From positions 1 through 64,000 of the forward strand of contig NZ_JABEQE010000012.1 of NCBI RefSeq assembly GCF_014174375.1: DNA of 64,000 nt, in the 5' to 3' direction. The stretch is from Gluconacetobacter asukensis (GTDB lineage: Bacteria; Pseudomonadota; Alphaproteobacteria; Acetobacterales; Acetobacteraceae). The notes beneath the pieces are model-generated. The model was not told where the DNA came from, did not search any database, and saw nothing but the letters and a program-made list of their open reading frames with translations. The position numbers and the translations under genes were made by a program. Positions 15,053 through 27,979 of this stretch are shown piece by piece. Numbering within the stretch: position 1 is the first letter of the stretch; each line of letters opens with the position of its first letter.

Positions 15053-16200
15053 CCATGAAACCGGCATGGCCCGACGCGCCCGTCGATGTCGCCGTCATCG
15101 GCGGCGGCGTCATGGGGGCGACCGCCGCGCTGTTCCTGGCGCGCGGCGGCATGCGCGTCGCCCTTCTCGACCGGCAGGACCTGTTCCGGTCGGCCTCCGG
15201 CGTCAATGCCGGCACGCTGACCCTGCATATGACGCGTGCGCAGTTGATCCCCCACGCCATGCGCGGCCGCGAAATGTGGCTGACGAGCAGGGAATGGCTG
15301 GGGACGGATGTCGGCGCCCTGGCCACGCCAGGCCTGTCCCTGGCCTTCACGGAAGGCGAGGAAGCATTGCTGCGCGAGCGCGCCAGGGTCCGGCAGCAGG
15401 CGGGCGCGCCCATCGAAATCGTCCCGCCCGCCCGCGCGATCGCGATCGAACCCGGCCTCAACCCCTCGATCCGCGCCGCCGCCTATTGCGCACTGGACGG
15501 ACATATCCCCGCCTACCGCGTCGGCCGGGCCTACGCACGGGCCCTGGCCGGGGCTGGCGTGAGCCTGTTCGAACATTGCGCGGTAACGGCGATCCACCCC
15601 TCCGGCAATGGATACGACATAAGCTGCGCGGAACAGGCGCGCCCGCTGGCGGCCCGGCGCGTGGTGCTGGCCGCCGGCGTATGGCTGGAAAAGATGCTGG
15701 GCTGGTTCGGCCATACCATTCCCATCCGCTGCCTGATCAACCAGCTCGTGGTGACGGAAACGATGCCCCAGGTCATGGGCAGCGTCGTCAGCATCGCCAA
15801 CGGCCTTCTGTCGCTCAAGCAGTTCGCGAACGGCAGCGTCCTGATCGGTGGCGGCTGGCAGGGCGAAGGCAATATCCATGACGGCGGCACCCGCGTCATT
15901 CCCGAAAACCTGCGCGGCAACGTGCGCCTGGCGCAGCATGTCATCCCGCGCCTGTCCCAGGCGCAGATCCTTCGGGTATGGCTCGGCCTCGAATCCGAAA
16001 CGCCCGATGCCATGCCCCTGATCGGCGCCCTGACCCCGCGCGACGACGCGTTCGTGATCGGGTGCGCCCATTCCGGCTTCACCAGCGGCCCGTATATGGG
16101 CCGCCTGCTGGCGGAACGCATCCTGGGCGGCACCCCGGACCTGAGCGCATTCGACCCCCACCGTTTTTCTCCGTCCAGCACCCCGGAACCCTCGCCATGA
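15049..16200 (+). CDS. HcnC-like FAD-dependent oxidoreductase (DAO fold)
   Basis: Protein of 383 aa starting at ATG 15049, ATGA-coupled to the hcnB-like gene. It has the DAO-fold N-terminus VAVIGGGVMGATAALFLARGG and the C-terminal GCAHSGFTSGPYMGRLLAE motif that contacts FAD. This is the catalytic amine- or imino-acid-oxidising subunit in HcnC, OoxB/NoxB and D-hydroxyproline dehydrogenases. Cyanide formation is not implied: the operon encodes uptake and catabolic enzymes. Its downstream neighbour, a DHDPS-family lyase, overlaps by ATGA, so the two are made together. Confidence 0.87.
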   Translation: MTMKPAWPDAPVDVAVIGGGVMGATAALFLARGGMRVALLDRQDLFRSASGVNAGTLTLHMTRAQLIPHAMRGREMWLTSREWLGTDVGALATPGLSLAFTEGEEALLRERARVRQQAGAPIEIVPPARAIAIEPGLNPSIRAAAYCALDGHIPAYRVGRAYARALAGAGVSLFEHCAVTAIHPSGNGYDISCAEQARPLAARRVVLAAGVWLEKMLGWFGHTIPIRCLINQLVVTETMPQVMGSVVSIANGLLSLKQFANGSVLIGGGWQGEGNIHDGGTRVIPENLRGNVRLAQHVIPRLSQAQILRVWLGLESETPDAMPLIGALTPRDDAFVIGCAHSGFTSGPYMGRLLAERILGGTPDLSAFDPHRFSPSSTPEPSP

Positions 16201-17144
16201 TCCCTGCTTCCGCCACCCCTTTCCGGGGCGTCTACGCCGCGACGCTGCTTCCCCTGCACGAAGACGGGACGATCGACGTACCCAACCTCGCCCGTCACCT
16301 GAGGGACTGCACCTCCAGCGCGGACATCGTGGGCATCCTCTGCAACGGCCATGCCGGCGAGAACCACCTGCTGAACCGCGAGGAAAAACGACTCGTCGTC
16401 GAAACCGCCCGCGGCCAGATCGGCGCGGAGAAGATCATCGTCTCGGGGGTACTGTCGGAAGATGTCGAGGATGCCTGCCTGCAGGCCCGGGACGCGGTCG
16501 ATGCCGGGGCGGACGCCCTTCTGATCTTCCCGTCCTTCTCCTGGGCCGTGTCGCAGGATGCCGAAGCCATCGTCGCGCATCATCGCGCCATCTGCGAGGC
16601 GACGGATGCGCCGATCATGCTCTACCAGTCGTCGATCGGCACCGCCGGCATGGCCTATTCCCTTCCGATCCTGGAACGGTTGCTGGCGCTTCCCCGGATC
16701 GTGGCGATCAAGGAAGGAAGCTGGGAGACCAACGCCTATGACCGTCATCGCAGGCTGGCGGCGCGCGTCGCCCCCCATGTCGAGGTCATGGCCTCGGGCG
16801 ACGAGCACCTGCTGGCCTGCTTCGCCATCGGAACCACCGGCAGCCTCGTCAGCCTCGCGGCCATCCTGCCCCGCAGCATCGGCGGGCTGTGGAACGCCAT
16901 CCAGGCCGGAGACCTGAACACCGCCCGCCGGATCCACGCCACCATCCAGCCCCTGGCGAACCTGATCTACGGCCGCGCCCCGGCCGGCCGCGCCACGCTG
17001 CGCCTGAAAGCCTGCCTGGTCATGCAGAAGAAATGGTCGTCCTGCCGCACCAGGAAGGCGTCGGAAGTTCTTTCGCCGGAGGAATGGCGGGAATTGTCAC
17101 AGGCTCTACAATACCCGCTGGCAATGGAACTGGAACGTGACTGA
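16197..17144 (+). CDS. DHDPS/N-acetylneuraminate lyase family enzyme (second copy)
   Basis: Protein of 315 aa starting at ATG 16197. The Schiff-base lysine is in VAIKEGS and the active-site tyrosine in MLYQSS. The substrate loop reads CNGHAGE where the other copy has LGSTGE and dapA enzymes have GTTGE, so the substrate carboxylate is probably held differently. Family members cleave or deaminate 2-oxo acids or cyclic imines. Placed immediately after the dehydrogenase subunits, it probably takes the oxidised product. The two copies in this island share the fold but differ strongly in sequence. Confidence 0.82.
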   Translation: MIPASATPFRGVYAATLLPLHEDGTIDVPNLARHLRDCTSSADIVGILCNGHAGENHLLNREEKRLVVETARGQIGAEKIIVSGVLSEDVEDACLQARDAVDAGADALLIFPSFSWAVSQDAEAIVAHHRAICEATDAPIMLYQSSIGTAGMAYSLPILERLLALPRIVAIKEGSWETNAYDRHRRLAARVAPHVEVMASGDEHLLACFAIGTTGSLVSLAAILPRSIGGLWNAIQAGDLNTARRIHATIQPLANLIYGRAPAGRATLRLKACLVMQKKWSSCRTRKASEVLSPEEWRELSQALQYPLAMELERD

Positions 17145-17148
17145 CACC

Positions 17149-17790
17149 ATGACGGTCGACCGCGAACTCAATCTTGCCGAACATGCCTACGGGCAGATTC
17201 GGCGCATGATCTTGGAACGGGAACTGCCCGGCGGCATGTCGGTCGTCGAAGGCCGTCTGGCGGACCATCTGGAAATCTCCCGCACCCCGGTCCGCGAAGC
17301 CGTGATGCGCCTGGCCGCCGAGGGACTCCTGACCAAGCAGGGGTCGCGGTCGTTCGCCGTCCGCCGCGTCTCGGCGGCAGAATTCTTTCAATGCATGCAT
17401 ATTCGCGAGGTCCTGGAAAGCGAGGCAATCCAGTTGGCCTTCGGCAAAATCGACCGCAGCCGTATTGCCGACTTACGCGAGAGGGTCATCGCACTGGGCC
17501 AATCTCCCGAGCAGACCGCCGCTCACTGGCAGCTGGACGACCAGATCCATCTGATGTTCGCTCGGGCGTCGGGCAATATCGTTCTGACCAAGACCATAGA
17601 CGATCTGCGAACGCTGACGCGGCTGTGTGAGATCACGTATCCGCTCGGGCGCGTGCCCGCTTCGACCATCGAACACCTGGCCATTCTGGACATGCTGCTC
17701 GATGGCGACGCCGAAGCCACGAAGACGGCCATGCTGACGCACCTGCGCAACGTCGCGACAGACTGCATGGACATCCTTCGCGGCGGTTAG
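17149..17790 (+). CDS. GntR-family transcriptional regulator with FCD domain
   Basis: Protein of 213 aa from ATG 17149; a GTG at 17137 in the same frame would add four residues and overlap the previous stop. Residues about 10-75 are the winged helix (LEISRTPVREAVMRLAAEGLL). The rest is an all-helical FCD ligand domain with the usual metal-type Asp/His positions (LDDQIHLMF, EHLAIL, THLRN). FadR-type regulators commonly repress local catabolic genes and respond to an organic-acid ligand. It is the only regulator inside the island and the best candidate to bind the shared GTATAC-containing element. Confidence 0.87.
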   Translation: MTVDRELNLAEHAYGQIRRMILERELPGGMSVVEGRLADHLEISRTPVREAVMRLAAEGLLTKQGSRSFAVRRVSAAEFFQCMHIREVLESEAIQLAFGKIDRSRIADLRERVIALGQSPEQTAAHWQLDDQIHLMFARASGNIVLTKTIDDLRTLTRLCEITYPLGRVPASTIEHLAILDMLLDGDAEATKTAMLTHLRNVATDCMDILRGG

Positions 17791-17827
17791 CCCCTGCCAG
17801 ACCTTATCCAACGTCAGGAACCTTCCA

Positions 17828-19213
17828 ATGACATTCGACGTGGTCATCCGCAACGGTACCATCGTGACCGCCAGCGACATGTTCACCGCCGATATCGGCA
17901 TCACCGGAGAAACGATCGACACGATCGGGCACGATTTGACCGGCCACCGCGTCATCGACGCCACCGGCCTGCTGGTCATGCCGGGAGGCATCGATGGCCA
18001 TTGCCATATCGAGCAGGAAGAGGCGGACGGCACCGTGCATGAAGACGATTTCGCTTCGGCCAGTGCGTCCGCCCTGTTGGGCGGAACGACGAGCGTGGTC
18101 TGTTTCGCGTCCCACGTGCCAGGGCGCGACATCGTCGCACAGTTCGAGGATTATCTCCGGCGCGGGCAGCGTTCGCGCGTCGATTTCGCCATTCACCAGA
18201 TCGTCACCCGCACCGACGCCGACACGATCGAAAAGGGCATTCCCGAAATCGCCCACCGGGGCGCGGCGGGGCTGAAGGTCTTCATGACCTACGACGATTT
18301 CCATCTGACGGACGGACAATTCCTGCGCGTTCTCGACGCGGCGAAAGCCAGCGGCCTCGTGGTTTCGGTTCATTGCGAAAATTACGATGCGATCCGCCAC
18401 ATGATAGAAGCCCATCTCGCCGCCGGGCGAACCGACGCCCACGCCCACGCCACCTCACGCCCCTCCTGCCTGGAGCGCGAAGCCACCTATCGCGCCATGA
18501 CCCTGGCGGAACTCGCCGGCCACGACATCCAGATCTTCCATGTCTCCTGCCCGGACGTCGCGGAGGAAATCGCACGGGCCCGTCATCGTGGGGTCAGAGT
18601 CTCCGCGGAAACCTGCCCCCATTATCTCACCCTCACGGAATCCGACCTGAAACGGGATGGATTCGAGGGCGCGAAATATATCTGTAGTCCTCCGCTGCGT
18701 ACCCAGGCCGACAGGGACGGCATGTGGCCGTATCTGCGCGACGGCGTGATCGGCATCGTCTCGTCCGACCATTGCGGTTACACGTTCGAAGGATCGTCCG
18801 GCAAGGCGCGACACGGGCGCGATGCCGATTTCTCCCTGATTCCCAACGGCATGCCCGGTCTGGGAACGCGCCTGCCCGTCCTGTTCGATGCCGGCGTGAA
18901 CGGCGGCGAGATCGGCCTGACGGATTTCGTCCGCCTGACCGCCACGGCACCGGCCAGGCGATACGGCCTCTACCCCCGCAAGGGCACGATTGCCCCGGGC
19001 AGCGACGCGGACCTGGTCCTCTGGGACCCGGCAAGACAGGTCACGATCACCAATGACCTGTTTCAGGGCAATATCGATTATACGCCATACGAAGGGCGTC
19101 TCGTCACCGGCTGGCCCACCATCGTGCTTGCACGCGGCAAGATAGCGGTCGAGAATGGTCAGGTATTGCGCGAACCCACGATGGGCCGTTTCATCAGGCC
19201 GGAATGCTCATGA
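17828..19213 (+). CDS. Dihydropyrimidinase/hydantoinase-type amidohydrolase
   Basis: Protein of 461 aa with AGGAA 7 bases before the ATG. The cyclic-amidohydrolase metal site is complete: GHCH at the first strand, the lysine that is carboxylated in this family (GLKVFMTYDD), VSVHCEN, IFHVSCPD and the catalytic Asp in SSDHCGY. The sequence around GGIDGHCHIEQ...GTVHEDDF matches D-hydantoinase/dihydropyrimidinase better than allantoinase. It would open a cyclic ureide or imide to an N-carbamoyl or amide acid, a product that an M20 enzyme such as the one at 2754-4025 could hydrolyse (inference). It follows gntR by 37 bases. Confidence 0.87.
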   Translation: MTFDVVIRNGTIVTASDMFTADIGITGETIDTIGHDLTGHRVIDATGLLVMPGGIDGHCHIEQEEADGTVHEDDFASASASALLGGTTSVVCFASHVPGRDIVAQFEDYLRRGQRSRVDFAIHQIVTRTDADTIEKGIPEIAHRGAAGLKVFMTYDDFHLTDGQFLRVLDAAKASGLVVSVHCENYDAIRHMIEAHLAAGRTDAHAHATSRPSCLEREATYRAMTLAELAGHDIQIFHVSCPDVAEEIARARHRGVRVSAETCPHYLTLTESDLKRDGFEGAKYICSPPLRTQADRDGMWPYLRDGVIGIVSSDHCGYTFEGSSGKARHGRDADFSLIPNGMPGLGTRLPVLFDAGVNGGEIGLTDFVRLTATAPARRYGLYPRKGTIAPGSDADLVLWDPARQVTITNDLFQGNIDYTPYEGRLVTGWPTIVLARGKIAVENGQVLREPTMGRFIRPECS

Positions 19214-19314
19214 TGTGACACCATAAAGATGATTCGATATAAAATTCGAACGCTTTTCGATGTGCCAATGAGGGACGTGCCGGCGAGCCCTCAACCAGCA
19301 AGGCCCCTCATCGG

Positions 19315-20607
19315 ATGAGCGAGACGACCCTTCCCGCGACACATGCTGGCCGGACCGGACGCCCCGGCATGTTCCTCCAGGTCGTCATCGCCACCCTGCT
19401 GGGCCTGGCGCTGGGCGTCTTCGCACCCGACCTCGCAGCGCAGACACGCTGGGCGACCGACCTGTTCCTCCATCTGATCGTGATGGCGGTCGGCCCCCTG
19501 CTGTTCTGCATCGTGGTAACGGGGATCGTCGGCGCCGGGTCCTTGCGCACCGTCGGGCGGCTGGGCGCCAAGGCGCTTCTCTATTTCGAGGCGATGACCA
19601 CGCTGGTCCTCCTCTTCGCCGTCGGCATCGCGCTGCTCCTCCAGCCGGGCCGGGGCATCGTGTTCGCCCCCACGTCCGACGATACCCGCATGATCGCGTC
19701 CTACGCCCACAACGCCCATGTGATGCATGAGGGCGGCATCACGGACTTCCTGCTGGCATTGATCCCCCGCACCCCGGCCGATGCCTTCGCGCAGGGCAAT
19801 GTGCTGCAGATTCTCTTCTTCGCCATCCTGTTCGGCTGCTGCCTCAGCCAGATCGGCGAGACCGGCGCACCGATCGTCCGCCTGATCGACGCGCTGTCCG
19901 CCCTGTTCTCGCGCATGATGCGCTTCATCATCGCGCTGGCACCGCTCGGCGTGTTCGGCGCCATGGCCACCACCACCGCACGCTATGGCCTCAACGCGAT
20001 CGGACATCTAGCCGCCTTCGTTCTCCTGTATTTCGTGGTCATCACCCTGTTCGTCGTCGGCGGGCTGGGGCTCTGCCTGCGCCTGTCGGGGGTCAGCCCG
20101 ATACGGTTCTTCCGCTATTTCCGCACGGAATTCGCAATCACCTTCGCAACGACCGCCTCGGATGCAGTGCTGCCCAGCGTCATGACCAAGCTGGAACAGA
20201 TGGGCGTGGACCGTCAGGTGGTAGGGCTGGTGGTACCGGCAGGCTATTCCTTCAACCTCGACGCCCTGTCGATCTATCTGGGCCTCGCCGTCATCTTCCT
20301 GGCCCAGGCGACGGGCACGGTCTTGAGCGCGTGGCAGATCCTGATCATGCTGGCGACTGCGTTGGTGACCTCCAAGGGCGCCCATGGCGTACCCGGCATC
20401 GCCATTGTCGTGCTGGCCGCCACCTTGTCCGCCATCCCCTCGATCCCCGTCGCCAGCCTGGTCATGCTGCTGGCGGTGGACTGGTTCGTCGGCATCGCAC
20501 GCGCGGTGGGCAATCTGGCCGGCAACTGCGTGGCGCCGGTCGTGATCGGCGCCTGGGAAGGCAAGCTGGACCGCAAACGCGCGGCCGAGATCCTGGGGCG
20601 GCCATGA
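19315..20607 (+). CDS. DctA-like dicarboxylate/amino acid:cation symporter
   Basis: Protein of 430 aa in the DAACS family. Hairpin motifs are visible: ITFATTASDAVLPSVMTKLE (HP1), GYSFNLDALSIYLGLA in TM7, LVTSKGAHGVPG (HP2) and a TM8 ending in VGNLAGN. DctA-type proteins import C4-dicarboxylates, and relatives import acidic amino acids. A 101-bp gap precedes it (19214-19314) with no clear promoter; the ribosome site is weak. The next gene overlaps by ATGA. It may import a carboxylate related to the island substrate. Confidence 0.88.
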   Translation: MSETTLPATHAGRTGRPGMFLQVVIATLLGLALGVFAPDLAAQTRWATDLFLHLIVMAVGPLLFCIVVTGIVGAGSLRTVGRLGAKALLYFEAMTTLVLLFAVGIALLLQPGRGIVFAPTSDDTRMIASYAHNAHVMHEGGITDFLLALIPRTPADAFAQGNVLQILFFAILFGCCLSQIGETGAPIVRLIDALSALFSRMMRFIIALAPLGVFGAMATTTARYGLNAIGHLAAFVLLYFVVITLFVVGGLGLCLRLSGVSPIRFFRYFRTEFAITFATTASDAVLPSVMTKLEQMGVDRQVVGLVVPAGYSFNLDALSIYLGLAVIFLAQATGTVLSAWQILIMLATALVTSKGAHGVPGIAIVVLAATLSAIPSIPVASLVMLLAVDWFVGIARAVGNLAGNCVAPVVIGAWEGKLDRKRAAEILGRP

Positions 20608-21635
20608 CCGACACCATCCTCGTCGACACCGAAACGCTGGCATCCCGCGTCACGGCCGCATTGCTGACCGCCGGCGCCTCGCCCGACTCCGCCGCCGCGG
20701 CTACCGAGGCGCTGATGCATGCCTCACGGACCGGCATCGACAGCCACGGGGTCAGACTGGCCGCACATTACGCCACCATGCTGCGGCATGGACGGCTGAA
20801 TCGCACACCGCGCCTGACGATCCGGCGCACCGCCCCGGCCACGGCCATGCTGGATGCCGATGACGGGCTGGGCCATTACGGCTGCTACCGTGCGATGGAC
20901 CTGGCCGTCGAGATCGCAGCCGAAACGGGGGTGGGCGCGGTCGGCATCGTCCGCTCATCGCATTGCGGCGCGGCCGGCGCCTATGCCCTGAAGGCCGCCG
21001 AGGCCGGCATGATAGGCATCGTGACCAGCAATTCCGACGCGAATGTCACGCTCTTCGGCGGCAGTCTGCCGTTCCACGGCACCAACCCGATCGCCATAGC
21101 CGCCCCCGTCGCCGGACAGGCTCCGTGGCTGCTAGACATCGCGACCTCGTCCATTCCCTTCAATCGCGTTCGGCTCTACCGGTCGCTGAACCGCCCCCTG
21201 CCCGCCGGCGTGGCAGCCGACATGCATGGCCATGAGACGACCAGCGCGCATGACGCGCACATGCTGCTGCCGCTGGGCGGCCCGGATTACGGGTTCAAGG
21301 GCGCGGCACTGGCCGGAATGGTCACCATCCTGTCGGCCGTTCTGACCGGGGCCGCGACCGATCCCGCCATGATCCCGATGACGGACACGGACGACCGGAC
21401 GACGGCGCGCAACGTGGGCCAGTTCTGCCTGGCGATCGACCCCGCGCGCTTCGTGGGTCGCGCCGCCTACGACCGGGCGATGGCCGACTATCTGCGCCGA
21501 CTCCGCGCCGTCCCGCCCACGGATGCCGAACACCCCGTCATGGCGCCGGGCGACCGCGAATGGACGACGGCCCGGCACCGGGCCACTAAAGGCATACCGA
21601 TCGACCCCGACACACGGCGCTTCCTCGGCCTTTGA
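20604..21635 (+). CDS. LDH2/MDH2-family NAD(P)-dependent oxidoreductase
   Basis: Protein of 343 aa starting at ATG 20604. The family motifs GIDSHGVRL and SSHCGAAGAY (active-site His) and FGGSLPFHGTNPIAIAAP are clear. The group includes malate, ureidoglycolate (AllD) and 2,3-diketogulonate dehydrogenases and the pyrroline-2-carboxylate reductases (LhpD/DpkA) used in D-proline and hydroxyproline metabolism. With HcnABC-like dehydrogenases and DHDPS-family enzymes nearby, an imine or 2-hydroxyacid substrate is likely. The choice cannot be made from sequence. It is the last gene of the rightward arm. Confidence 0.83.
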   Translation: MTDTILVDTETLASRVTAALLTAGASPDSAAAATEALMHASRTGIDSHGVRLAAHYATMLRHGRLNRTPRLTIRRTAPATAMLDADDGLGHYGCYRAMDLAVEIAAETGVGAVGIVRSSHCGAAGAYALKAAEAGMIGIVTSNSDANVTLFGGSLPFHGTNPIAIAAPVAGQAPWLLDIATSSIPFNRVRLYRSLNRPLPAGVAADMHGHETTSAHDAHMLLPLGGPDYGFKGAALAGMVTILSAVLTGAATDPAMIPMTDTDDRTTARNVGQFCLAIDPARFVGRAAYDRAMADYLRRLRAVPPTDAEHPVMAPGDREWTTARHRATKGIPIDPDTRRFLGL

Positions 21636-21660: not shown

Positions 21661-22920
21661 TCAGGCCGCCTCTTCCTCGTGGCGGGCATTGATCCGCAGC
21701 AGCGCCGTCAGGGCCGAGACCATCTCGTCCATCATCTCGTCCGTATGGTGCGGCCCCGGCGTCAGGCGCAGCCGCTCGGTCCCGCGCGCAACAGTGGGAT
21801 AGTTGATCGGCGTGGCATACAGCCCGAAATCCGACAGCAGACGCCGGCTGATCTCGTTGCAGCGATCGGCATCCCCGACCGGGATCGGCACGATATGGCT
21901 GGGCGTCGACATGAACGGGATTCCAGCCTTGGTCAGCTTGGCGCGGAACGTCGCCACCCGCTCGAACATCTTCTCGCGCCGCCAGCCCTCGCGCCGCACC
22001 ATGCGCACACTGGCCAGCGCTGCCGCCACCACCGACGGCGGCAGCGCGGTGGTGAAGATGAAGCCCGACGCGGCACAGCGCAGGTAGTCGATCAGTTCCG
22101 CCGACCCGGTGACGTAACCGCCATGGACGCCGAACCCCTTGGCCAGCGTGCCCTCGATGACGTCGACCTGGTCGGCCACCCCGTCACGCTCGGCCACCCC
22201 GCCGCCCTGCGGGCCATACAGCCCCACGGCATGCACCTCGTCCAGATAGGTCATGGCGCCATATTTGCGCGCCAGCGCACAGGTGGCGCCGATATCCGAG
22301 ACGTCGCCATCCATCGAATAGACGCTCTCGAACGCCACCAGCTTGGGCGCGTCCTTGGGCGCCGCCGCCAGCTTGGCCTCCAGATCCGCCAGGTCGTTAT
22401 GCTCGTAGATCACGCAGGACGAACCCCGCGCGCCCTTGATGCCGGCGATCATCGAGGCATGGTTCTGCCGGTCGGAGAAGCAGATCCAGCCCGGCATGCT
22501 GGTCAGGATCGTCTGCAGGCTGGCCTGGTTCGAGACATAGCCGGACACGAACAGCAGCCCGGCCTCCTTGCCATGCAGGTCGGCCATCTCGGCCTCCAGC
22601 TCCGCGTGCAGCGGGCTGGTGCCGGCAATGTTGCGGGTGCCGCCGGCACCGGCCCCATGTTCGCGGATCGCGGCAATCGCGGCCTCGGCCACCGCCGGCT
22701 CGACCCCCATGCCCAGATAATCGTTGGCCGACCACACCACCACCTCGCGCCCCACGGGCGGCTCGGCGGCAGGCGCGGTCACATGATCATAGACGGGGTA
22801 CCGATCGGCCTGGCGTGCCAGCGGCGTGAAGCGGCGATATCGTCCCTGCTCGCGGATACCGTCCAGAGATTCCCGGCAAAAACGGTAGAAGGGATGCCGA
22901 TCCACGTCGATACTGGGCAC
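21661..22920 (-). CDS. hemA: 5-aminolevulinate synthase
   Basis: PLP enzyme of the alpha-oxoamine synthase family, condensing glycine with succinyl-CoA to start heme synthesis (C4 pathway, typical of alphaproteobacteria). A GTG start at 22920 with GGGAGA 9 bases upstream gives 419 aa beginning near the usual [19 protein letters not shown] region. The PLP lysine is in [37 protein letters not shown] and [12 protein letters not shown] are the expected cofactor-site motifs. Related 2-amino-3-ketobutyrate ligases lack the GRYR N-terminus, so ALAS is favoured. Confidence 0.92.
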
Positions 22921-23034
22921 TCTGTCATTCTCCCGCGACGCCGATGCGGGCCCGCCGGCCCGCACGGCCGTCGCCGTTACGGTCTGTCCACCTACAACGC
23001 GGGCCACCGACAGCGCGGGGACCACGATCCTGTT

Positions 23035-23499
23035 TCATCGCACATACACCCGCACGGCGCCGGTGGTCATCGACGAATCCGACATAGCCGCCATTTCCAC
23101 CTGTTCGGGCCGCGCGCCGGCGGCGACGATGGCAGCCGCCACCGCCTGGCCATCCGTGGTCACGGCATGCCGCATGGCCAGGGCCTCCTGCTCCGGCGTC
23201 GGGCCGGCCGGCACCACGACCCGGACCACGAACAGCACGTTCGGCTTGCGCGCCAGCGCCCGCCTGACGGCGCCTTCCAGCGCCGGCCGCCACGCATTGT
23301 CCGGCGTGCCGGCACGGATATCCACCAGCGGCGGCACCGGGCGCGGCGCGGGGGGCGCAGGCGGATAATGCGGCACCGGCGGCCGGCTGGCGCGCGGATC
23401 GAAGGTCCGCTGGTCCACCAGGTTGCAGCCGGCCAGCCCGGTCACGCACAGGGCGGACACGGCCATCAGGGTCGAAACGGAACGAATACGATGCAGCAT
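23035..23499 (-). CDS. Predicted lipoprotein of unknown function
   Basis: Protein of 154 aa with a lipoprotein signal peptide and lipobox LAGC at about residues 22-25. A proline-rich stretch (PHYPPAPPAPRPVPP) is followed by a compact domain with VLFVVRVVVPAGPTPEQEALA and GARPEQVEMAAMSD. The last part resembles small periplasmic domains that carry an invariant acidic-polar segment, but I do not recognise a named family. It probably sits in the periplasmic leaflet of a membrane. It is divergent from the transketolase-like gene; 176 bp (23500-23675) separate them. Confidence 0.7.
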   Translation of the reverse strand: MLHRIRSVSTLMAVSALCVTGLAGCNLVDQRTFDPRASRPPVPHYPPAPPAPRPVPPLVDIRAGTPDNAWRPALEGAVRRALARKPNVLFVVRVVVPAGPTPEQEALAMRHAVTTDGQAVAAAIVAAGARPEQVEMAAMSDSSMTTGAVRVYVR

Positions 23500-23675: not shown

Positions 23676-25685
23676 ATGTTCTGCGCGCAGACCGATATCG
23701 CCCCCGAGCTGGAGGCGCCCCTCGACCAGGCCCCGCCCTCCGACGCCCTGGCCGAACCGGCAACGCGCGAGACGATCCACGCCCTGCGCGACGCGGTCAG
23801 CACCTTCATCGAGGCCCGGCTGGGCAACCCGGCGGACACCGCCCAGGCCGGGGCCATGGCGGTCCCCGCCTGCGTGCTGTGGAACCAGTTCCTGCGCTTC
23901 GACCCCGCAAGCCCCGACTGGCCCGACCGCGACCGCTTCGTCGTCTCGTCCACCCGGCACCGGCCGCTGCTGGATGCGCTGATGCGCCTGGCCGGCCAGA
24001 CTGTGGCGCCCGACAGCGTGGTCGAATATGGCGTCCATCCGGCGGTGGAAATGGCCTTCGGCCCCAGCGGCCAGGGGCTGGGGGCCGCAATCGGCATGGC
24101 GTTGGCCGAACGGCAGCTCGCGGCGCGGTTCGGCCGCTCGATCGTCAATCACCGCATATGGGCCCTGTCCTGCGGCACCGAACTGGCCACCGGCGTGGCG
24201 ATGGAAGCCGCGTCCCTGGCCGCGCGGATGCGGCTGGACCGCGTCACCGTCCTGTTCGAGATCGCCCCGCATGAGGAGGACGAGGCCGAGGACACGCTGG
24301 CCCGCTACGCCGCGACCGGATGGATGGTGCGCAAGGTCGCCGCCGACGACCACGACGCCGTGCAGGCCGCGCTGTCGGCGGCGATCCGCTCGCGCAAGCC
24401 CTCGGTCCTCGCCTGCTCCATCACGCCCCGATCCGCTCCGCCCCGCCCCGTCGCATCTGCCACCGGGCCGGCGCCCGATCATTCGACGCTGCTATGGGCC
24501 CGGGCGGCCCGCCGTGGGGCATCGGCCCGGCGCTCCTGGCTGCGCCGGCTGGTCAAGCACCGGCTCCGCGCGGAATTCGAACGTATCGCGGCACGGCGCC
24601 TCCCCTCCTTCTGGCGCGAGGACTGGCTCCGCGCATGGCACACGGCCACACTATCCGCGATCCTGCCCGACCCCGACACGATTCAGGCCGATACAACCCT
24701 GGGCTACGGCCGCCAGGGGCTGGACATCCTGCGCGACCTGGTGCCGGAAATGCTCTGCCTGTCCTCCCGTCGCGGGCGCGAGCGGACCGAGGCCATGCCG
24801 GCCGACCAGACGCTGCCCGATTGCGGCACCCTGGTCCACGGGCTGGCCGCCCTGCTGAACGGAATCGCGGTGCATGGCGGAATGGTGCCGTGCGGGGCGA
24901 TCACCTTCGTCGCCATCGACCGCATGCGCCCGGCCCTGCGTTTCGCGGCCATGATGCGCCAGCAGGTGATCTACCTGCTGACCGATGACGGGCTGGCCCT
25001 CAGCGAAGACGGCGCGGGCTGGCTGCCGGTGGAACAGCTTGCCAGCCTGCGCGCCATGCCCAACGTCCTGGTCTTCCGCCCCGCCGACCGGCGGGAGACG
25101 ATGGAATGCTGGGAACTGGCCCTGCGCCGCGCCGACGGCCCCAGCCTGATCACCCTGTCGCCGATGGCGACCGACGCCAACGCCCCGCCCGACCTCCGCC
25201 AGCGCCGCCCGCGCGACGGCAGCGCGCGCGGTGGTTATGTGATGGAAGACGCCCGCGGCCCGCGCCAGGTCACGCTGATCGCCACCGGCAGCGAGATGGT
25301 CATCGCCCGGCAGGCCCAGCACCTGCTGGTGCGCGACGGCATCAGCGCCGCCCTGGTGTCGCTGCCCTGCTGGGAGCTGTTCGCCCGGCAGGACGCCGCC
25401 TATCGCGCGCAGGTGCTGGGGGATGCGCCGCGCATCGGCATCGAAGCCGCCTCGGGTTTCGGCTGGGACCGGTGGCTCGGCCCGGATGGCGCCTTCATCG
25501 GCATGGAGGATTTCGGCGAAGCCGCACCGTCGAGCGAACTGTATCGCCGCCTGGGCATTACAGCCGAACGCATACACGAAACGGCGATCCGCCTTGTCAA
25601 CGAGACGGGACGTGACTTTCAATCGCCTTCCGGGCAGAAAGCGGATGGCCCTCGCGCACGATCCGTTGCCGGAGGCACCACGTAG
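23676..25685 (+). CDS. Transketolase-like protein lacking catalytic residues
   Basis: Protein of 669 aa from ATG 23676, about the length of E. coli TktA, and alignable to it over most of its length. GPSGQG (129-134), VEQLASLRAMPN, RPAD and the C-terminal IATGSEM and GWDRWLGPDGAFIGMEDFGEAAP are conserved. The thiamine-diphosphate site is gone: the GDG of the GDG-N motif is SCG (166-168 region), its Asn partner is lost in VLFEIAPHEED, the catalytic Glu of YGVREFGM is Val387, and the SGHPG, NGHGSM and GPTHQP histidines are absent. It lies 48 bp before gap and on the same strand. It is intact with no frameshift, so a non-catalytic or changed role is likely. Confidence 0.85.
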   Translation: MFCAQTDIAPELEAPLDQAPPSDALAEPATRETIHALRDAVSTFIEARLGNPADTAQAGAMAVPACVLWNQFLRFDPASPDWPDRDRFVVSSTRHRPLLDALMRLAGQTVAPDSVVEYGVHPAVEMAFGPSGQGLGAAIGMALAERQLAARFGRSIVNHRIWALSCGTELATGVAMEAASLAARMRLDRVTVLFEIAPHEEDEAEDTLARYAATGWMVRKVAADDHDAVQAALSAAIRSRKPSVLACSITPRSAPPRPVASATGPAPDHSTLLWARAARRGASARRSWLRRLVKHRLRAEFERIAARRLPSFWREDWLRAWHTATLSAILPDPDTIQADTTLGYGRQGLDILRDLVPEMLCLSSRRGRERTEAMPADQTLPDCGTLVHGLAALLNGIAVHGGMVPCGAITFVAIDRMRPALRFAAMMRQQVIYLLTDDGLALSEDGAGWLPVEQLASLRAMPNVLVFRPADRRETMECWELALRRADGPSLITLSPMATDANAPPDLRQRRPRDGSARGGYVMEDARGPRQVTLIATGSEMVIARQAQHLLVRDGISAALVSLPCWELFARQDAAYRAQVLGDAPRIGIEAASGFGWDRWLGPDGAFIGMEDFGEAAPSSELYRRLGITAERIHETAIRLVNETGRDFQSPSGQKADGPRARSVAGGTT

Positions 25686-25733: not shown

Positions 25734-26756
25734 ATGACTGTCAAAGTCGCAATCAATGGCTTCGGGCGCATCGGTCGCCTCGTTCTCCGCGGCATCATCG
25801 AAAGCGGGCGCACCGACGTCGTGCCCGTGGCGATCAACGATCTGGGCAGCGTGGCCGACAACGCCCACCTGCTGACCTATGACAGCATTCACGGCCGCTT
25901 CCCCGGCGAAGTCCGCGTCGAAGGCAACAATATCGTCATCACGGCCAACGGCCGCACCTATGCGCCTATCGCCGTCTCGGCCGAAGCCAATCCGACCAAG
26001 GTGCCCTTCGAGGGCGTGGACGTGGCAATGGAATGCACCGGCCGCTTCACGAACAAGGAGAAGGCCGCCCATCTGATCGAGGCCGGCGCGCGCAAGGTCA
26101 TCATCTCCGCCCCCGCCAGCCACGTGGATGCCACCATCGTCTTCGGCGTGAACCAGGACACGCTGACCAGCGACATGACGGTGATCTCCAACGCCTCCTG
26201 CACCACCAACTGCCTGGCGCCGGTCGCCAAGGTGCTGGACGAGGCGTTCGGCATCGAGCGCGGCTACATGGTCACCATCCACTCCTACACCGGCGACCAG
26301 CGTACGGTGGACACGCTGCACAGCGACCCGCGCCGCGCCCGCGCGGCGGCGATGAACATCATCCCGACCTCGACCGGCGCCGCCCGCGCGGTCGGCCTGG
26401 TGCTGCCGCACCTCAAGGGCAAGCTGGACGGCACCGCCATCCGCGTGCCCACGCCCAACGTCTCGCTGGTGTCGCTCGATTTCGTGCCGACGCGCATCCC
26501 CGCCTCGGTCGAGGTGGTGAACGAGGCGATGCTGAAGGCGGCGTCCGAAGGGCCGCTGAAGGGCATCCTGGCCTATAACACCGCGCCGCTGGTCAGCTCC
26601 GACTTCAACCACTCCATCGCCTCCTCGACCTTCGACGCGACCGAAACCGCGCTGATCGACGGCGGCAAGCTGGTGCGGATCTGCAGCTGGTACGACAATG
26701 AGTGGGGCTTCTCGAACCGCATGTCCGACACGGCAGCGGTCTTCGGCGCGCTCTGA
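25734..26756 (+). CDS. gap: Glyceraldehyde-3-phosphate dehydrogenase, type I
   Basis: Protein of 340 aa with a good ribosome site (GGGAGAG). The NAD-binding [15 protein letters not shown] is at 4-19 and the catalytic Cys156 is in SNASCTTNC. The usual HSYTGDQ and [12 protein letters not shown] segments are present. It converts glyceraldehyde-3-phosphate to 1,3-bisphosphoglycerate (or the reverse in gluconeogenesis). It shares one base with the pgk start, so the two are translationally coupled. Confidence 0.97.
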
Positions 26757-27979
26757 TGGCCGCGCTGTCCTTCAAGACGCTGGACGCCTTGCAGCCCAAA
26801 GGGCGCAAGGTGCTCCTGCGCGCCGATCTGAACGTCCCGGTGCGCGACGGTCAGATCACCGACCTCACCCGTATCGAGCGCCTGGCGCCCACCATCCGCG
26901 AACTCGCGGACAAGGGCGCGCGGGTGATCGTGGTCAGCCATTTCGACCGTCCCAAGGGCCAGCGCGTGCCCGCCATGTCGCTGGAACCGATCGCGACCGC
27001 CCTGGGCACCATCCTGGGCCGTCCGGTGCGCTTCGCCGAGGACTGCATCGGCCCGGTGGCCGAACAGGCCGTGGCCAGCCTGCAGGACGGCGACGTGCTG
27101 GTGCTGGAGAACACGCGCTTCCACGCGGGCGAGGAAAAGAACGACCCCGAATTGTCGAAGGCGCTGGCCGCGCTGGCCGACGATTACGTCAATGACGCGT
27201 TCTCCGCCGCCCATCGCGCCCACGCCTCGACCGAAGGCGTAGCCCGCTTCCTGCCCTCCTTCGCCGGAAGGCTGATGGAAGCGGAGCTGAACGCCCTGAA
27301 CGTCGCGCTGGAAAACCCGGTCCGCCCGGTCGGCGCGATCGTCGGCGGCGCCAAGATCTCGACCAAGCTGGACCTGATCGGCAACCTGCTGGACCGGGTG
27401 GATGTGCTGATCATCGGCGGCGCGATGGCCAACACCTTCCTGGCCGCCAAGGGCGTCGCCGTCGGCAAGTCGCTGCAGGAAGCCGACATGCACGACACGG
27501 CCCGCGCCATCATGGCAAAGGCCGCCGGCAAGGGCTGCGAGATCATCCTGCCCGTCGACGCGGTGACGGCCACGGAATTCCGTGCCGACCCGCCGACCAA
27601 GACGGTGCCGGTCGATGCCGTTCCCGCCGACGCGATGATCCTGGATGCGGGGCCGGAAACGGTGCGCCTGCTGACGGAAAAGATCGTCGGGCTGAAGACG
27701 CTGGTGTGGAACGGCCCGCTGGGCGCGTTCGAACTGCACCCGTTCGATACCGCCACCAACCTGGTCGCGGCCGAAGTGGCGCGGCGCACCCAGGCCGGCC
27801 AGCTGACCAGCGTGGCCGGCGGCGGCGACACCGTCTCGGCCCTGCGCCATGCCGGCGTGGCGGACGAGATGACCTACACCTCGACCGCCGGCGGCGCATT
27901 CCTGGAATGGCTTGAGGGCAAGACCCTTCCCGGCATCCAGGCGCTCAGCGAACTGTCCGAGCGGATTCTCCCGCTCTGA
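26756..27979 (+). CDS. pgk: Phosphoglycerate kinase
   Basis: Protein of 407 aa starting at ATG 26756, with the stop of gap and this start overlapping as TGATG. The signature [15 protein letters not shown] is at the N-terminus, followed by [35 protein letters not shown] and the C-terminal [11 protein letters not shown] nucleotide site. The length is normal. It catalyses the ATP-forming step after gap. Confidence 0.97.

Follow-up and report, generated by a model that had tools for sequence, protein, structure and literature searches.

The window, by which we mean the whole 64,000-nucleotide stretch of Gluconacetobacter asukensis DNA that was analyzed, carries an open frame of 669 codons plus a stop codon, with no internal stop, at positions 23676 to 25685 (+). 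From the frame, Pfam and NCBIfam matches, alignment with Escherichia coli TktA, and the predicted fold, we describe its 669-amino-acid product as a catalytically dead protein of the transketolase (TK) fold. The three-domain architecture of transketolases is complete in the Pfam matches: Transketolase_N (3.5e-33; residues 47 to 249, positions 23814 to 24422, +), the remnant of the thiamine diphosphate (ThDP)/PP domain; Transket_pyr (4.6e-21; residues 388 to 495, positions 24837 to 25160, +), the remnant of the pyrimidine-binding domain; and the C-terminal Transketolase_C_1 (4.9e-34; residues 519 to 629, positions 25230 to 25562, +). The best sequence match in the PDB was the transketolase of Thermus thermophilus (E = 8.6e-86). 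Against NCBIfam model TIGR00232 (bacterial transketolase, EC 2.2.1.1), the protein scored 328.8 bits, below the curated equivalog cutoff of 682.25. A chance open frame or translation artifact was ruled out by the Pfam domains, the PDB sequence match, and a simulation of neutral evolution. The simulated gene, at 0.1 change per site, gained a mean of 3.0 stops and stayed open in 5% of 200 runs, whereas the frames of its relatives in the genus, at dS values of 0.29 to 0.66 (15 pairs), are all open.

The start codon of gap (GAPDH; 25734 to 26756, +) lies 48 bases past the TK stop and is followed by pgk (26756 to 27979, +), both genes being named by homology. The original prediction, a reading of the window without database searches, had placed a 669-codon frame free of frameshifts directly before gap-pgk, and both the frame and its position were confirmed. 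On the other side, the TK gene adjoins a small lipoprotein-like gene that matches no NCBIfam model (23035 to 23499, −), and hemA, encoding 5-aminolevulinate synthase by its NCBIfam match, lies beyond it (21661 to 23025, −). Farther upstream (15978 to 21635, +), translations show one row of dihydrodipicolinate-synthase-like, GntR-like regulator, dihydropyrimidinase-like, dicarboxylate-symporter-like, and malate/lactate-dehydrogenase-like genes, perhaps a catabolic cluster.

We compared the protein with TktA (reference sequence from NC_000913) at 19 cofactor and catalytic positions, which, with their roles, we take from the TK literature to be the key ones. Only G114 and D469 are retained (2/19). 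The ThDP/Mg motif GDG...N is absent: D155-G156 has become Gly-Thr, and the stretch bearing N185, the Mg/ThDP asparagine, has been replaced by one about 6 residues shorter. With E160 changed to Thr, the former GDG...E part of the motif now reads C166-G-T-E-L-A-T-G173 (24171 to 24194, +). Val387 (24834 to 24836, +) stands in place of the catalytic Glu411. None of the active-site histidines 26, 66, 261, and 473 remains: H26 of SGHPG is Asp, H66 of NGHGSM is Arg, H261 is Ala or unaligned, and H473 of GPTHQP is Trp. H461 has likewise been replaced, by Asp. The loss of the GDG-N motif, the catalytic glutamate, and the histidines of the three sequence motifs had been proposed from an alignment by eye and is borne out here.

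The body of the enzyme is still recognizable, as had also been proposed for its fold-defining parts. Besides the three Pfam domains, an AlphaFold2 model built from a 52-row alignment confidently predicted a TK fold (pLDDT, 84; pTM, 0.86) and superimposed on TktA (PDB 2r5n) with a Z score of 40.5 and an rmsd of 2.8 over 595 residues. The two proteins would therefore have a common fold at about 30% identity, while differing at 17 of the 19 key positions. Foldseek/VIA-align matches outside the transketolases (PDH E1) belonged to the known ThDP superfamily. L122, which belongs to a different dead lineage, retains none of the 19 residues and also gave a good model (pLDDT, 86.4; pTM, 0.89). The window genome has a second TK on another contig, which retains all 19 key positions, scores 841.9 bits on TIGR00232, and adjoins genes for a bifunctional transaldolase/phosphoglucose isomerase (tal/pgi), 6-phosphogluconate dehydrogenase (gnd), and glucose-6-phosphate dehydrogenase (zwf).

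We followed the distribution of the gene through its orthologues. Ten Gluconacetobacter records, among them G. diazotrophicus, contain orthologues with 70 to 97% identity, and Nguyenibacter has a fragment. The gene was found in all 13 other Gluconacetobacter genomes searched (as a fragment in G013), and the orthologues of the genus share the losses, a check suggested along with the original prediction. We then scored 107 TK copies, a set in which second TKs, TKs of outgroups, and 13 nearly identical members of the genus are included, and called a copy dead if it kept fewer than 15 of the 19 key positions. Fifty-nine copies kept 15 to 19 positions, 48 kept 0 to 12, and none kept 13 or 14; because the loci were taken in order of their similarity to the window protein, 48 of 107 is not a frequency in the family. 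No key position was lost in all dead copies alike. Glu411 survives in 15 of the 48, His26 in 11, and Asp155 in 8, and the survival of Glu411 means that the copies are not equally stripped. All 48 lie in open frames, one of which (L148) ends at a contig end.

On a Gap+Pgk tree obtained by a quick search from 95 loci, with intact TKs at 48 and dead ones at 47, the state of the TK required 10 changes, 7 of them forced by starred branches. The dead copy of genome G153, which has no gap beside it, was left out of this tree. A careful tree of 37 loci required 6 changes (6 to 7 over bootstraps), 4 of them forced. A single origin of the dead state was rejected on the 37-locus tree (log-likelihood lower by 256.8; p-AU = 3.1e-5). 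Counts of changes give no direction by themselves; we interpret them as losses, given that the TKs of alphaproteobacterial outgroups, like other TKs, are intact. The dead state has arisen repeatedly within the Acetobacteraceae. In the largest dead clade of the 95-locus tree, which contains the window gene, 31 of 31 copies are dead, and the presence of Gluconacetobacter in it leads us to regard this clade as the acetic acid bacteria.

Next, we estimated selection by the Nei-Gojobori method for pairs of copies inside one group; such pairs lack independence, and dS is in part saturated, with values up to 1.7. Over 41 within-group pairs of dead copies, dN/dS (omega) ranged from 0.05 to 0.53, against a median of 1.0 and a lowest value of 0.64 in the neutral simulation of the window gene. 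Values were 0.15 to 0.39 in Gluconacetobacter (15 pairs), 0.09 to 0.20 in genus code g97 (6 pairs), 0.17 to 0.23 in g84 (6 pairs), 0.05 to 0.19 in g55 (3 pairs), and 0.37 to 0.53 in g80 (3 pairs). Outside the large clade, dead copies gave 0.15 in g11 (1 pair), 0.27 in g121 (1 pair), and 0.23 to 0.36 in g77 (6 pairs). Intact copies of four other groups gave 0.05 to 0.28 (10 pairs). Changes over 21 Gluconacetobacter pairs fell mostly on the third codon position (2019, 1603, and 4670 at positions 1, 2, and 3, respectively). Along the Gluconacetobacter protein, omega was lowest in the strongly constrained pyrimidine domain (0.14; residues 381 to 500), followed by the C-terminal domain (0.18; residues 519 to 640) and the N-terminal domain (0.27; residues 31 to 250), and was 0.33 to 0.60 in the ends and linkers. 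Each of the three domains of the dead protein evolves under purifying selection. The protein shows two marks of a pseudoenzyme, namely, descent from an active family without the catalytic residues and selective retention as a protein. The constraint is weaker than that on an enzyme of the same cluster, since omega was above that of gap in all 41 dead-copy pairs; it was above that of pgk in 40 of 41.

These values bear on the idea that the frame stays open merely so that ribosomes shield the gap-pgk transcript from polarity, an idea that would fit the presence of gap beside 47 of the 48 dead copies and beside all 35 of the further dead copies described below. Shielding requires an open frame but no conserved protein. 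Omega is well below 1 in all domains, which a frame kept open for gap-pgk expression alone would not produce, and we give the idea almost no credence, also in view of the clean absence of the gene in some genomes and of the dead copy of G153, which lies away from gap.

The position before gap-pgk is older than the loss of catalysis. We had collected the 107 TK copies both inside and outside the family; 95 of them adjoin gap, and 48 of these 95 are intact. The gap-pgk neighborhood is ancestral, and the TK gene of the window goes back to the tkt gene of a tkt-gap-pgk cluster in an ancestor. Since intact Acetobacteraceae TKs share the locus, the position is inherited and is by itself no evidence for a new role. 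The link to gap-pgk that the original prediction had stressed therefore stands as a description of nearly all dead copies but does not set them apart, as intact copies occur there too and the G153 copy does not. Intact gap-linked Acetobacteraceae TKs resemble the window protein in locus, in full length, and in 44 type-specific positions, mostly with 38 to 46% identity to it (best local alignment). They differ from it in having 15 to 19 of the 19 key residues, which makes them catalytically plausible. The 44 positions, present in at least 80% of intact and dead gap-linked copies and in at most 30% of 57 other TKs, have been retained in dead copies; common descent may be partly behind this sharing. 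In the large dead clade, 22 of 25 long loci have the small lipoprotein-like gene next to the TK gene. In G153 (loci L111 and L185), the dead TK lies beside the lipoprotein-like gene and hemA, with gap-pgk on another contig.

We also searched 31 genomes picked for a weak or missing match to the window protein (plus G153), of which 27 had a gap match. The gene is missing in 20 of the 31: the small lipoprotein-like gene directly adjoins gap, with no TK between them. No dead TK was found elsewhere in these 20 whole genomes in a search at E = 1e-20, and all 20 retain gap-pgk. All have TKs, and every locus read showed 17 to 19 of the 19 key residues. The absence from 20 related genomes means that the gene is dispensable in some lineages, and its function, if any, is lineage dependent. 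In G127, only a TK remnant is left. The gap-linked TK of G129 (L206) lacks two stretches and has a frame change compared with an intact relative; this assembly is incomplete, and the broken copy may be an assembly fault. Gap-linked TKs of genus code g116 show a graded loss of the active site, with 15/19 key residues in L151 (G186), 12/19 in L146 (G128), and 4/19 in L096 (G228).

Such patterns could mean slow decay, in which the gap-linked copy became dispensable after a second TK was present and is now being lost, with some lineages further along than others. The 20 genomes without the gene, the deleted and frame-changed copy of G129, the remnant of G127, and the g116 series are all what one would expect. 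The original prediction had named relatives with intact sites, showing this copy to be simply decaying, as a finding that would count against it; intact relatives do exist, but the dead copies are constrained. We consider slow decay unlikely given omega values of 0.05 to 0.53 against a neutral 1.0, the 48 open frames, the good predicted folds, and residues newly fixed across genera.

Every one of the 48 dead-copy genomes has a second TK, as does G013, where the copy is a fragment. In 48 of these 49 genomes the second TK has 19/19 key residues, and in one (G165) it has 18/19. Among genomes with an intact gap-linked copy, 11 of 44 have a second TK (counted by presence). The association between loss and a second TK is strong in the raw counts (47/47 versus 11/44) and weak once phylogeny is respected: among 7 phylogenetically independent pairs, 3 to 6 were in the expected direction and none was against it (median P = 0.125). 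The second TKs of seven dead-copy genomes (G122, G089, G233, G250, G213, G189, and G266) are 47 to 49% identical to that of the window genome, compared with 58% or more in the other dead-copy genomes, which suggests that the replacing enzyme has more than one origin.

TK active sites lie between two chains, and the dead chain could therefore be a regulatory subunit that heterodimerizes with the active TK and tunes it. A conserved TK body, the presence of a second TK in 48 of 48 dead-copy genomes, and the retention of TktA E165, presumably an interface residue, in 39 of 39 dead copies would agree with this. Heterodimers are harder to reconcile with the low local identity between the dead protein and its own second TK (about 37 to 38%) and with the divergence among the second TKs of dead-copy genomes, which are of at least two kinds. 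We regard a regulatory subunit of this kind as quite unlikely.

To see what the dead copies keep, we counted residues in 39 of them (23 belonging to the large clade and 16 from other lineages, with the truncated L148 and eight close genus members set aside). Of 169 residues present in at least 95% of active TKs, 62 were kept in at least 80% of the dead copies and 59 in fewer than 30%. The lost residues include H26, H66, H100, D155, E160, N185, H261, R358, S385, F437, Y440, H461, H473, and R520; retention was intermediate for Glu411 (38%) and Asp469 (51%). Alignments also showed new residues in the former pocket of the large dead clade. Arg416 (24921 to 24923, +), at TktA Tyr440, is fixed there, and Asp437 (24984 to 24986, +), at His461, and Trp449 (25020 to 25022, +), at His473, are mostly conserved. 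In a first sample of this clade, the counts were 32/32 for Arg at 440, 30/32 for Trp at 473, and 29/32 for Asp at 461. A second sample comprised 38 further loci, the top matches of a profile search with the large dead clade; 35 were dead, all beside gap, and the other 3 were intact. Arg at 440 was found in 35/35 of these dead copies, Trp at 473 in 28/35, and Asp at 461 in 22/35. Being top ranked and mostly from genus codes already sampled (12 from g84, 22 from g55, and 1 from g95), these 35 are further copies and no unbiased test. Together, Arg at 440 occurs in 67 of 67 sampled copies of the clade and in none of 16 dead copies of other lineages, in which Trp473 and Asp461 are absent or rare.

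The pocket residues favor a rebuilt site in the large dead clade, or the filling of a void. One could suppose that the emptied pocket, with Arg416, Asp437, and Trp449, was rebuilt for a new ligand or chemistry, as a sensor or a ThDP-free enzyme. The invariance of the arginine, the high counts of the other two residues in the first sample, and the rarity of all three in other lineages would agree with such a change. The same residues could be mere void filling, the other dead lineages do not share them, and Asp461 and Trp473 were less constant in the second sample. A new ligand or chemistry as the main explanation thus seems very unlikely to us.

We favor, at a probability of roughly 60%, the reading that the protein is a TK-fold pseudoenzyme derived from the tkt of tkt-gap-pgk and kept for a noncatalytic role after another TK took over. 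The gap-linked TK may already have had a noncatalytic role that depended on the folded body of the protein and its surface. Once another TK had taken over the sugar chemistry, the catalytic site of the gap-linked copy would have drifted and been partly rebuilt, with the side role retained. The present protein would then be a folded, ThDP-free TK body that acts through binding, a property inherited from that side role, most likely as a binding or regulatory partner of a protein of central carbon metabolism; GAPDH, PGK, and the active TK are candidates. The original prediction of a structural or regulatory pseudoenzyme is thus upheld in that shared losses, selection, and the predicted fold argue against decay, while the structural or regulatory role itself is what we infer. 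More tentatively, the tkt of tkt-gap-pgk might hide a second, noncatalytic function in Acetobacteraceae, uncovered repeatedly once another TK was present (about 10 times on the best tree and at least 4 times on the supported branches of the careful tree). The pocket of the large clade could then have become a new site for a ligand or partner, formed by Arg416 and usually Trp449 and Asp437.

Isolated dead paralogues occur often and are difficult to interpret. Here, related lineages lost catalysis repeatedly while an active paralogue was present and selection acted on the rest of the protein, a natural experiment that separates the chemistry of an enzyme from its other roles; a moonlighting function of transketolase would become directly testable. 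The protein resembles pseudoenzymes generally in being a dead homologue kept beside an active paralogue and differs from them in that the loss recurred at a single locus within one family. Human TKTL1 and TKTL2 are divergent TK paralogues whose activity has been questioned, and a modeling study is reported to argue that both are functional (PMC6334435); in the window protein, the ThDP/Mg site is gone. Long lists of literature matches were judged on their best entries (e.g., the best 20 of 1,227). Among the matches listed, from open-license papers, we found no report of a dead gap-linked TK or of repeated loss at this locus, no account that treats this protein as a pseudoenzyme, and no expression or interaction data for it. 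Metabolic models for these bacteria should not list genes of this kind as transketolases. Acetobacter pasteurianus 386B has been annotated with two transketolases (PMC3751514), and one of the two may be such a dead copy.

Three genomes without a dead copy have TKs close to that of E. coli (L272, L274, and L275, in G184, G021, and G121, respectively). Their identity to E. coli TktA is 64%; Asp155 is replaced by Glu and Ile187 by Val, and they were perhaps acquired from outside the family.
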